Positions 13,666 to 20,088 of a stretch of DNA of 23,512 bases are shown piece by piece. The stretch's first letter is position 1. Each line of letters starts with the position of its first letter. Position numbers and translations under genes: made by a program. The DNA is from a virus. The stretch lies in the IMG/VR virus record IMGVR_UViG_3300006917_000158, positions 1 through 23,512 of that record, one strand, 5' to 3'. The notes below the pieces were generated by a model. That model was not told the origin of the DNA. It ran no database searches and saw only the letters and a program-made list of their open reading frames with translations.

Positions 13666-13874
13666 GGCTTCAGCCCCCACGCGTACTTCCTGCGCGTGCC
13701 GTGGCGCACCACCTCGCCGCGTTCGAGCATGCGCTTCAGGCTGCGGCACACGCGCCGGATGTCCTCTCCGCGCTGCTCGGCGATCCACCATGCCTCGAGC
13801 GGCCGGCCGTGCTCGGCGAGCATGCGGCGCAGTTCGCGCTGGCGGGGGCCGCCGCCTTTGGGGGTGTAGCTCAT
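13662..13874 (-). CDS. Small winged-helix-like protein
   Basis: The protein is 70 aa. Residues 10-65 (RQRELRRMLAEHGRPLEAWW, RRVCRSLKRMLERGEVVRHG) look like a winged helix: helix, helix-turn-helix with a recognition helix near VCRSLKRMLERG, then a short beta wing VVRHGTRRKYAW. It may bind DNA as a regulator or accessory replication factor. ATG 13874 overlaps the methyltransferase stop (ATGA). The longer open frame upstream lies inside the methyltransferase gene and is rejected. Confidence 0.55.
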   Translation of the reverse strand: MSYTPKGGGPRQRELRRMLAEHGRPLEAWWIAEQRGEDIRRVCRSLKRMLERGEVVRHGTRRKYAWGLKP

Positions 13875-14680
13875 GCGACCTCCGCGAACAACGGCGCATC
13901 GCCACGGATGCGGCGCTCGGCCATTGCCGCGTACTCGGGATTGAGTTCGATCAGGATGGCATCGCGTCCGTGGCGATCCGCGACGAGGCCGGTTGTTCCT
14001 GCACCGCCGAACGGGTCGAGAACGGTGCCGCCAGCAGGGCAGCCGGCGAGGATGCATCGACGGACTAACTCCGGCGGCATGGCGGCAATATGACCTGCGC
14101 TGTCGCCACCGGGCGAAATTTCCCAAACGCTTTTATTCATTTCGGCGGTGCGGTGAAACCAGTAACGCGGTTCTCGACTCAGCAAGAACACGTATTCATG
14201 AGACTTGCTCGGCCGGTCTTGGCGCGGCGGCTCGCTGGCGACTGGCTTTGACCACAGAATTTCGGCCCGCAGATACCACCCTGATGCGCTCAGAGACGCG
14301 CTAAGGATTGCCGGGATGCCGAGCAGTTCCTTTCTTTTCCACCCGTCAGGAGCGCCCTTGTAACCCCTGCGGTTGATGATCGACCGCCATTCGGGTTTGT
14401 CGCCCCAGCTGCCACCACCACCGAAACCGCCGGCAGAGTAGCCGTCCTGAACGTTAAGCCATGCCGTACCGTCGTGCCGCAGCACCCTGCGGACCTCATC
14501 GAACACAGCGACCATCTTCTCGACGTACTCGGCGGGCGTCGGCTCTAGTCCGATCTGTCCCGCCACGCCATAGTCGCGCAGGCCGAAGTACGGCGGGCTG
14601 GTGACGCAGCAATGCACGGAGGCCTCCGGCAGCGTCTTGAGCACGTCGAGGCAGTCGCCGTGGAGGATGCGGACGGTCAC
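13871..14680 (-). CDS. Site-specific DNA methyltransferase, beta class (N4-cytosine or N6-adenine)
   Basis: The protein is 269 aa from a GTG that overlaps the previous stop (GTGA). Motif IV TSPPY lies at residues 27-31 and the SAM-binding motif I DPFGGAGT at 222-229, so the order IV then I marks the beta class. The SPPY form favours N4-cytosine methylation but does not prove it. The central part (about 80-190) holds the likely target-recognition region. No restriction endonuclease is nearby except the VRR-NUC gene, which is not a usual partner, so it is probably an orphan enzyme that protects phage DNA or marks it for replication control. Confidence 0.88.
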   Translation of the reverse strand: MTVRILHGDCLDVLKTLPEASVHCCVTSPPYFGLRDYGVAGQIGLEPTPAEYVEKMVAVFDEVRRVLRHDGTAWLNVQDGYSAGGFGGGGSWGDKPEWRSIINRRGYKGAPDGWKRKELLGIPAILSASLSASGWYLRAEILWSKPVASEPPRQDRPSKSHEYVFLLSREPRYWFHRTAEMNKSVWEISPGGDSAGHIAAMPPELVRRCILAGCPAGGTVLDPFGGAGTTGLVADRHGRDAILIELNPEYAAMAERRIRGDAPLFAEVA

Positions 14681-15048
14681 GGCGCCCCCCTCAACGGCCC
14701 GCCCCTCGTCGTCATGTCGTGGTCGTCCGTGCCCGTGTGGCGCGCGGCACGATCGCGCCGGCCCATCTCCTCGGCGTAGCGGTTCTCGGCCTCGATCTCC
14801 AGCGCCCTCGCGCGCGCGGCGCCGGCCTGCACGCGCCGGTAGATGAAGTTCATCTTCACGAAGAGCGCCGACGGCACGGCGTTGTAGAACGCGCCATCCA
14901 CCTCGAAGGACTGGCCCTCGCTCGCGGAGCGGCGGATGTTCTTCTTCATCAGCCACACCTCGAGCCACCACAGCACGCCCGTCACGCCCGCGCCGAAGAG
15001 GGCGCCAAGGCACATCCACACCCACCCGTCCATCGTCACCTCGCTCAT
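14677..15048 (-). CDS. Small membrane protein of unknown function
   Basis: The protein is 123 aa. Residues 8-33 form one Trp-rich membrane segment (WVWMCLGALFGAGVTGVLWW), followed by a basic KKN turn, a region with FEVDGAFYNAVPSALFVKMN and a charged helical tail. The ATG overlaps the previous stop (ATGA) and has a strong AGGAGGAA ribosome-binding sequence. Within a replication operon it may anchor something at the membrane, but no family is recognised. Confidence 0.6.
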   Translation of the reverse strand: MSEVTMDGWVWMCLGALFGAGVTGVLWWLEVWLMKKNIRRSASEGQSFEVDGAFYNAVPSALFVKMNFIYRRVQAGAARARALEIEAENRYAEEMGRRDRAARHTGTDDHDMTTRGGPLRGAP

Positions 15049-18855: not shown

Positions 18856-19023
18856 ATGAAGCTGCAAGACGCCCCGGCCGCGCTGATTCTGCGCGACATC
18901 AAGAAGTTTCAGGACGCGCAGAAGCGATACAGCGCCACCTCGCCCATTCACGCCGACATCGGCAAGCAGCTTGCGCCCCTCTTCGCCGAGATGGCGCGCC
19001 GCCAGCGCGAAGGGATGCTGTAA
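18856..19023 (+). CDS. Small early phage protein of unknown function
   Basis: The protein is 55 aa, almost entirely helical and charged (LRDIKKFQDAQKRYSATSPI, ADIGKQLAPLFAEMARRQRE). It is the first gene of the rightward operon, with GGAGGA 6 nt upstream of the ATG. Its stop overlaps the next start (TAATG). No family is recognised; a small nucleic-acid or protein-binding factor is plausible. Confidence 0.55.
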   Translation: MKLQDAPAALILRDIKKFQDAQKRYSATSPIHADIGKQLAPLFAEMARRQREGML

Positions 19024-19328
19024 TGAGCGCCGCACACAAACCCGCTACTGCGCTGCCGCTGATCGGTGACGAGTACATGATCGACCAATACGGCTACATC
19101 TACCGGATGGAGCCTGACCAGCAAGGCGCGCATAGCGTCGTGGTCGCCAGCGTCAGCGTGCCGCCCGGCAGGAACAACGGAAGCGCAAAAGAGGCTTCCA
19201 AGATCATCGCCAAGGCTAACGCCTATCCCAAGCTCGTCGAGGCGCTGCGCGATGCCGTGAAGTTCTGCCCGGTTCCCACGCAGGACAAGATGTTGTCCCT
19301 CCTCCGCGAACTCGGCGAGCCCACCTAA
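19023..19328 (+). CDS. Phage protein with C-terminal AKANAYPKLVEALRD motif
   Basis: The protein is 101 aa. Residues 12-45 are beta-prone (LIGDEYMIDQYGYIYRMEPD). The end (KIIAKANAYPKLVEALRDAV) is a widespread phage motif in which a short helix AxANAxxxLxEAL closes small proteins of unknown function. The TAA stop at 19326-19328 lies within CCTAACG, the R'' box of an attC-like site, as is usual for the last codon of an integron cassette gene. Yet no matching cassette start is found upstream of it. Confidence 0.6.
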   Translation: MSAAHKPATALPLIGDEYMIDQYGYIYRMEPDQQGAHSVVVASVSVPPGRNNGSAKEASKIIAKANAYPKLVEALRDAVKFCPVPTQDKMLSLLRELGEPT

Positions 19329-19414
19329 CGTAGAAGTAACCGGCAAGCCCCCGCGCGGTGCTGCCGGAGCGAGATAGCCTGCCGGGGCTTGTCCGGTTGA
19401 CTGCCATGTTAGGC
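19323..19414 (+). other. attC-like recombination site 1
   Basis: R'' ACCTAAC (19323-19329) fits RYYYAAC and R' GTTAGGC (19408-19414) fits GTTRRRY. After a 7-nt spacer comes TAACCGG, and before R' come TCCGGTTGA and another 7-nt spacer. The arms pair (AACCGG with CCGGTT, then CAAGCCCC with GGGGCTTG) and leave one unpaired T, like the extrahelical base of attC sites. The loop between arms is about 32 nt. Total length is 92 nt, within the known range for attC. Confidence 0.65.
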
Positions 19415-19435
19415 CTGCGGGCCGAGAGGAAACGC

Positions 19436-19666
19436 ATGAAGCTGGAAGACCTACACATTGGCGTGTCGCCGCTGACGGACACCGTTTACCTGGGGACCGT
19501 GAGCAAGCGCGACCGGGGAGCGTGGGCCAGCAAGGTGGACTGCACCAGCAAGTTCATCGGCGCGCTGATGGACTGGACGCCACCTGGCACCGTGCGCCTG
19601 GTGAACGACAACCACGGCAACCGCTACGAGATTGAAGTGCGCAAGTTGCCGAATGATCAGGCCTAA
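19436..19666 (+). CDS. DUF7446-like phage protein in a cassette-like unit
   Basis: The protein is 76 aa. LHIGVSPLTDTVYLGTVSK (residues 6-24) and NRYEIEVRKL near the end match a small phage family I know as DUF7446, in which (I/V)SPLT and YEI(T/E)VR are conserved. Function is unknown. The ATG lies 22 nt past the GTTAGGC core, with GAGAGGA as ribosome-binding sequence, which is typical cassette spacing. The TAA stop lies in the R'' box GCCTAAC of the next site. The unit from core to core is about 300 bp and holds this one gene in the direction expected for a cassette. Confidence 0.65.
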   Translation: MKLEDLHIGVSPLTDTVYLGTVSKRDRGAWASKVDCTSKFIGALMDWTPPGTVRLVNDNHGNRYEIEVRKLPNDQA

Positions 19667-19714
19667 CGCCTAGCTAACCGGCGCGAAGCGTCCGGGTTGA
19701 GCGCCGGGTTAGAG
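19661..19714 (+). other. attC-like recombination site 2
   Basis: R'' GCCTAAC (19661-19667) is followed by a 7-nt spacer, TAACCGG, a short loop CGCGAAGCG, TCCGGGTTGA, a 7-nt spacer and R' GTTAGAG (19708-19714, 6 of 7 to GTTRRRY). The inner arms pair as CCGGCGC with GCG-T-CCGG, again leaving an unpaired T. Length is 54 nt. Spacers, L boxes and unpaired T agree with site 1, although the loops differ. Confidence 0.7.
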
Positions 19715-19730
19715 ATTTTACGGAGACAAA

Positions 19731-19991
19731 ATGAACACGCTGATAAAGAAGGTTGTGACGCAAGTGACGTTCCGCGAAAACGTGAGCGGGGCGAGTGACG
19801 TTCGATACCTGCGGCTGCGGTACGACAGCGAAGGCGCGGGGCGGTATTTCGTGCTGACGGACGAAAGCGACTTCGACGGAAAAGGAAACGAGATTCACCT
19901 TTCCAGCCCGGAGGATTTTCGGATGCTCTATGAGGCAGCAAAAGAGATGTGGGATCAAGGGTCGATCTACTGCGAAGGCGACGACTGGTGA
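19731..19991 (+). CDS. Acidic protein of unknown function in a cassette-like unit
   Basis: The protein is 86 aa. Its first half is beta-rich (VVTQVTFRENVSGASDVRYL, GRYFVLTDESDFDG) and the second a helix (SPEDFRMLYEAAKEMWDQGS) with an acidic end. No family is recognised. Base composition is less GC-rich than the phage average. It starts 17 nt past the core GTTAGAG with GGAG as ribosome-binding sequence, and its TGA is followed directly by the inverse core ATCTCTAAC. Single small gene, short leader and matching ends are all cassette-like. Confidence 0.6.
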   Translation: MNTLIKKVVTQVTFRENVSGASDVRYLRLRYDSEGAGRYFVLTDESDFDGKGNEIHLSSPEDFRMLYEAAKEMWDQGSIYCEGDDW

Positions 19992-19992
19992 T

Positions 19993-20041
19993 CTCTAACC
20001 CCTGACGCACCGCAGAGCCCTTCGCCGGGCTCTACAGTGCG
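19993..20041 (+). other. Partial attC-like site 3 / hairpin
   Basis: R'' CTCTAAC (19993-19999) is the exact inverse of the GTTAGAG core that opens this unit. A 7-nt spacer follows, then a 15-bp stem with two mismatches: CGCAC with GTGCG outside (20006-20010, 20037-20041) and AGAGCCC with GGGCTCT inside (20014-20020, 20027-20033). No GTTRRRY box follows within 40 nt, so the site is incomplete. The inner hairpin has no T run and is not a typical terminator. Confidence 0.5.
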
Positions 20042-20088
20042 CCAGCACTCCCGGCAACCAACCGGGCAACCACGAAAGGGACTAGACC

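Follow-up and report, generated by a model that had tools for sequence, protein, structure and literature searches.

Gene cassettes antiparallel to their attC sites in the early operon of an uncultured phage and in related viral arrays

The window analysed here is the whole of IMG/VR virus record IMGVR_UViG_3300006917_000158, a stretch of 23,512 bases that is possibly a fragment of a longer genome. Its minus strand encodes a terminase large subunit, a major head protein and a primase/helicase. A phage-type DNA methyltransferase gene (13871-15025, minus; phrog_67, E 2e-66) also lies on this late strand, outside the array described below. An early operon runs from left to right, starting at about 18.8 kb, and within it lies a two-cassette CALIN, that is, a cluster of attC sites without an integrase. 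The two sites are 340 bp apart, and with no TIGR02249 (intI) match in the record the array does not classify as a complete integron. An earlier note, made from the sequence alone, had proposed an attC cluster without an integrase in a phage, and the phage genes on the contig and the lack of an intI match in the record bear this out. No DNA similarity to the cultured-phage collection was found; there is no close relative among cultured phages, and the viral contigs gave one weak terminase relative only.

The hairpins of this array are attC sites, as judged by a model that is independent of them. This covariance model, R1, was built from 11 attC sites located between annotated genes of plasmid class-1 resistance integrons, and its training set includes no window or phage sequence. 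With filters off, R1 gave exactly two matches above 11 bits in the 23.5 kb, each of them on minus, and no other place scored higher than 10.1 bits. Site 1 (19322-19414, minus) scored 38.0 bits (E 5e-7) and was reported on the minus strand only, while site 2 (19660-19714, minus) scored 32.1 bits (E 1.2e-5) and just 6.8 bits on the plus strand. Thus, a model of class-1 sites alone finds both of the sites that the earlier note had called attC.

The details of the two sites agree with this assignment. In plus-strand order, site 1 reads ACCTAAC, 7 nt, TAACCGG, stem, T, CCGGTTGA, 7 nt, GTTAGGC. Core boxes of the form RYYYAAC...GTTRRRY are present on the minus strand of site 1 (GCCTAAC...GTTAGGT) and of site 2 (CTCTAAC...GTTAGGC), whose last R'' box begins with a base other than R. 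In both sites there is an additional base in the L''/L' arms, along with an unpaired T (plus strand TAACCGG / T-CCGG(G)TT-G-A), at the positions read in class-1 bottom strands. As single-stranded DNA, the plus strand of site 1 folds into the expected long hairpin (z = -4.35); the most stable fold predicted for site 2 is another pairing (z -1.95). A third core box, CTCTAAC (minus GTTAGAG), was read directly at the end of the array (19993-19999, minus). R1 found no attC match behind it, in keeping with the earlier description of a third site without a partner. Directly behind the array there is a strong hairpin (20002-20045; z -3.6) that has neither a T-run nor attC features.

Cassette 1 (19329-19666, plus) is 338 bp long and consists of a C, attC 1, a leader, a DUF7446-like gene and a TAA; its ends, between TAA and C, would be the crossover points of IntI. 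The passenger gene (19436-19666, plus; 76 aa) matches Pfam PF24233 above the curated cut-off (E 1.1e-8), which upholds its earlier description as DUF7446-like. Cassette 2 (19667-19998, plus; 332 bp) consists of a C, attC 2, a leader, an 86-aa gene and a core box through its TAA, a boundary that is predicted from the rule seen in units shared between viral contigs. Its passenger gene (19731-19991, plus) ends with a TGA just before the third box. Its coding score is 19, and that of the open reading frame antisense to it is -11; it has no Pfam or PHROG match and no relative among the viral contigs. Direct reading confirmed the inverse pairing of core boxes across each unit. For the first, GTTAGGCCTG (19408-19417) and CAGGCCTAAC (19658-19667) are exact inverse complements (10/10). 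For the second, GTTAGAGAT (19708-19716) and ATCTCTAAC (19991-19999) are an inverse match that extends to 11/11 when the flanking GG/CC is counted, so that the cassette ends are GGGTTAGAGAT and ATCTCTAACCC.

Where does the array begin? The gene immediately upstream (19023-19328, plus; 101 aa) has the C-terminus ...LLRELGEPT, and its TAA forms the left half of the first core box, such that the array starts exactly behind the stop (...LLRELGEPT-TAA-C). The stop codons of this gene and of 19436-19666 do lie in core boxes, as had been noted, each being the TAA of a CTAAC. The suggestion that an incomplete first cassette precedes site 1 did not survive: distant relatives of gene 19023-19328 in five other viral contigs end in ...LLRELGE(E/AE/AS) at the stop, and no attC was found at those five loci. 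We therefore dropped this gene as a candidate passenger and regard it as a native phage gene. With L271-L275, it makes up a phage early-protein family that has a conserved LLRELGE end at the stop and no Pfam or PHROG match. Native phage DNA picks up again at C19999. The predicted empty site would read GAGCCCACCTAA followed directly by CCCCTGACGCACC, joining CCTAA to CCCCTGACG, and the putative native core, ACCTAAC (minus GTTAGGT), would fit GTTRRRY.

Each cassette in the window is an attC followed by a gene, and the gene is antiparallel to the attC. In plasmid sequence with annotated genes, the class-1 strand opposite the gene has the form CTAACG..TTAAG..stem..T-CGGCTTGA..GTTAG. In the window, this bottom-strand form is found on the gene strand, which places the top strand of attC on minus and the genes on plus. 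A canonical cassette is a gene and then an attC in parallel; here the attC precedes the gene, with genes on plus and attC on minus. In the earlier note, the top strand was taken to be plus, and the exchange to follow the G of the GTTRRRY on that strand. This was also the polarity that we tried first, and we abandoned it after the comparison with a second viral contig, L002, the R1 scores on the two strands, and the count of break points in shared units.

Cassette 1 recurs in L002, a phage whose terminase differs from that of the window; over the 279 nt that align, identity is 92.8%. The attC arms and the spacers before the gene are common to both and the loop differs; the right break lies 3 nt past the TAA of the CTAAC box. 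For stretches shared between viral contigs, 15 ends at attC fall in the CTAAC box, 7 inside attC and one in the GTT box. Together, the shared-unit ends and the L002 match indicate that what moves is an attC together with the gene that follows it, and that the cut falls between TAA and C. By the L002 match and the 15:1 rule, the cassettes of the window have these same boundaries, with attC 5' of the gene. Whole units are exchanged between unrelated phages: L017 and L045 share one 327-bp unit that is 99.7% identical from CTAAC to CTAAC, and are otherwise similar in attC only. The passenger's own stop codon is the TAA of a CTAAC box in 44 of the 105 passengers scored. The claim that core-box pairing follows the unit rather than the site also holds more widely. 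Across 145 viral units, a full core-box match beyond GTT was seen for 67% of unit ends, 27% of comparisons within a site and 20% of random pairs; the corresponding values for bacterial cassettes, among the matches listed, are 72%, 14% and 12%.

We then surveyed gene polarity with a pattern that was taken from the window and represents a single attC arm family; it is present in 106 stretches in viral contigs and in more than 117 stretches in genomes. A codon model, for which long ORFs served as the training set, assigned gene direction; the directions are statistical ORF calls, and some of the contigs are fragments. Units were counted as ORFs between neighbouring model-detected attC sites, by the same procedure for viral and bacterial sequences. 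In viral contigs, 127 units were inverted and 6 canonical (of 133 scorable), or 57 versus 1 when counted as contigs. At bacterial loci, among the matches listed, 4 units were inverted and 48 canonical (of 52), or 0 versus 20 contigs. When similar units and contigs were clustered, the viral ratios were 112:5 for units and 49:1 for contigs (Fisher p ~1e-31 and ~1e-16, respectively). For the most part, the larger viral units scored as "canonical" seem to be antisense shadows; for example, a high-scoring antisense ORF in L005 (11420-11860) that was counted as canonical looks like a shadow frame. Since shadow frames were kept in the counts, the skew is conservative.

Some inverted loci were found in bacterial assemblies, and the four whose neighbours were scanned all adjoin phage genes: Erf/Gam (L166), a phage-type ParB (L167), RecE/RecT (L172) and a minor tail protein (L201). 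Among cultured phages, PH101 (L279) has four weak R1 matches on the plus strand between GenBank genes on the minus strand, and is hence inverted by gene calls independent of ours. Phage TJE1 (L226) has canonical polarity, and inversion is thus not universal in phages. One viral array that is otherwise inverted includes a canonical-direction gene (L019, 2426-2653, oriented by attC), possibly a captured bacterial cassette. A small viral contig of 4484 bp (L027) has at least 12 attC sites, with genes mostly inverted or of unclear direction, and may be part of a much longer array. Four large viral arrays were compared with cultured phages; three gave no match, and the fourth matched HNH-endonuclease and methyltransferase genes only.

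Matches to Pfam and PHROGs were sought for 73 passengers. DNA methyltransferases are numerous among those identified (eight of the N6/N4 type and one each of the C5 and D12 types); the others include Mom, Lar (restriction alleviation), a dATP/dGTP hydrolase, RNA ligase, PAPS reductase, a queuine tRNA-ribosyltransferase (TGT)-like protein, an endolysin/RNA-polymerase inhibitor and an HNH endonuclease. From these similarities, the passengers appear to serve mostly counter-defence and nucleotide and DNA metabolism. By eye, the translation of a cassette in L003 (9490-9770, minus) looks like a truncated version of a Mom-type DNA modification protein.

Few of the viral arrays come with an integrase gene. 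A search of 104 viral records gave an intI that passes the curated cut-off in three of them, and fragments in a fourth. In the inverted arrays of these three, intI is at the downstream end and co-directional with the cassettes: L267 (10945-11922), L269 (17052-17876), where the gene is apparently split over two frames (two overlapping matches), and L270 (18327-19343). On these three contigs, attC is on the opposite strand from intI and on its 5' side. This is the bacterial arrangement; gene direction alone differs. Among the matches listed, a full intI is present in 17 of the 25 bacterial genomes that carry attC sites of this form.

CALINs have been found in 17 phages in a recent study (Qi et al. 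2023, PMC9892861). The attC sites of PH101 and TJE1 are reported there to recombine with attI1 via IntI1, better from the bottom than from the top strand, and the PH101 bottom strands are on par with attC-aadA7 in crosses with attI1 (PMC9892861). Like the array in the window, these are attC clusters without intI; the arrays in that study carry methyltransferase passengers, and PH101 is also inverted. In contrast, the TJE1 array is canonical, and the window array comes from an uncultured phage. Both the PH101 and the TJE1 array are called typical, and in the text that we could consult the inversion in PH101 apparently goes unremarked (Qi et al. 2023, PMC9892861). For a further phage, P12002L, R1 gave no site, although divergent sites are reported there (Qi et al. 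2023, PMC9892861).

Similarities to bacterial integrons extend to the attC but not to the direction of the genes. The cassettes of class-1 integrons (aadA1, aadB, catB3) have R and L boxes, 7-nt spacers, an extra L-box base, an unpaired T and GTTRRRY, as in the window; their genes are parallel to attC and before it, whereas those in the window are antiparallel and after it. Sedentary chromosomal integrons of Beta- and Gammaproteobacteria (Thauera, Azoarcus, Endozoicomonas, Methylobacter) have attC sites of the same arm family as the window, but their genes are canonical in 48 of the 52 units among the matches listed. A departure from the standard direction has been described in spirochaete integrons, where intI is "generally in reverse orientation" (as cited in PMC9668308). 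The two cases are alike in departing from the standard and differ in what is reversed: in spirochaetes it is intI, and in the viral contigs the relation of intI to attC is standard and the genes are reversed. Inverted phage cassettes did not turn up in the open-access papers that we searched, and inverted polarity as a phage-wide rule appears to be new.

What could account for cassettes of this kind? We consider it highly probable that they are "mirror" cassettes, defined by their inverted polarity and by units that run between TAA and C, that form arrays across many phages and are exchanged among them, with an integron integrase as the presumed agent and the direction of reading as the presumed cause. 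The integrase would fold the bottom strand of attC, which here is the coding strand, cut between TAA and C, and join units at these points, so that units are added or swapped. Since the cut would spare the stop codon of the upstream gene, an incoming unit would add a complete gene with its leader to an active operon. In most phages the integrase would have to come from the host, and a few phages would encode their own at the downstream end of the array. Bacterial arrays are transcribed outwards from a promoter at intI/attI. Phage arrays would instead be read by a phage early promoter, from the end opposite attI/intI; from this side, only cassettes with reversed genes would be expressed and kept. 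The lack of intI in the window, the canonical TJE1 array and the derivation of the survey from one attC arm family count against this reading.

Several alternatives can be weighed against these data. That the hairpins are ordinary intergenic RNA elements, such as terminators or processing sites, is hardly credible, even though they are strong stem-loops, intergenic and on the sense transcript: the class-1 attC model matches them (E 5e-7 and 1e-5), an unpaired T and G are conserved at the positions of the attC extrahelical bases, core boxes pair by unit, T-runs are absent and there is no Rfam match. We rejected this candidate on the strength of the attC model and the Rfam result. It is also very unlikely that phages simply captured canonical host cassettes, with orientation set by chance and no phage-specific polarity. 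Reversed genes do exist in bacterial integrons (4 of 52 units among the matches listed), and TJE1 is canonical; yet the viral clusters are inverted by 112:5 (units) and 49:1 (contigs), the passengers are phage-type genes, and in the three viral contigs that carry intI, attC keeps its usual polarity relative to it.

A more serious alternative, which we nonetheless think improbable, is that attC-bearing units are now moved by homologous recombination alone, through 60-80 bp of attC, as part of phage mosaicism, with any role of IntI long past. The attC arms of unrelated arrays are indeed alike (84-86% for sites of L017 and L045), 7 of 24 attC-related ends lie inside attC, and intI is missing from most phages. 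However, the 15 ends concentrate at the CTAAC box rather than being scattered over attC, and complementarity of the cores follows the unit and not the site, as expected from core exchange. A separate alternative concerns the cause of the polarity. If the coding strand is exposed as single-stranded DNA, in the transcription bubble or during phage replication, attC sites in this orientation may recombine better. Recombination of attC requires single-stranded DNA, and the strand bound by the integrase is the coding strand in every inverted array. Bacterial arrays are subject to the same physics and have the opposite polarity, and we regard strand exposure as a possible but rather unlikely cause.

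Beyond the "mirror" cassettes themselves, the difference in polarity would keep the phage and bacterial cassette pools separate. We are evenly divided on whether there is a private phage pool of such cassettes, with genes for counter-restriction and DNA metabolism, that is shuffled by the host's intI or by a co-transcribed intI of the phage and kept apart from the bacterial pool by polarity.

To our knowledge, integrons are usually seen as belonging to bacteria, with phages acquiring a fragment of one now and then. For integron annotation of viral data, our observations mean that gene direction should not be assumed from attC. If phage cassettes are a distinct population with reversed genes, this would bear on how cassettes are formed; phages would then run a modular exchange of accessory genes of their own, which would be site-specific at stop codons and differ from mosaic recombination. 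If true, this would offer a testable reason for the rare mixing of phage and bacterial cassettes, and a concrete route by which anti-restriction genes may be swapped among unrelated phages.
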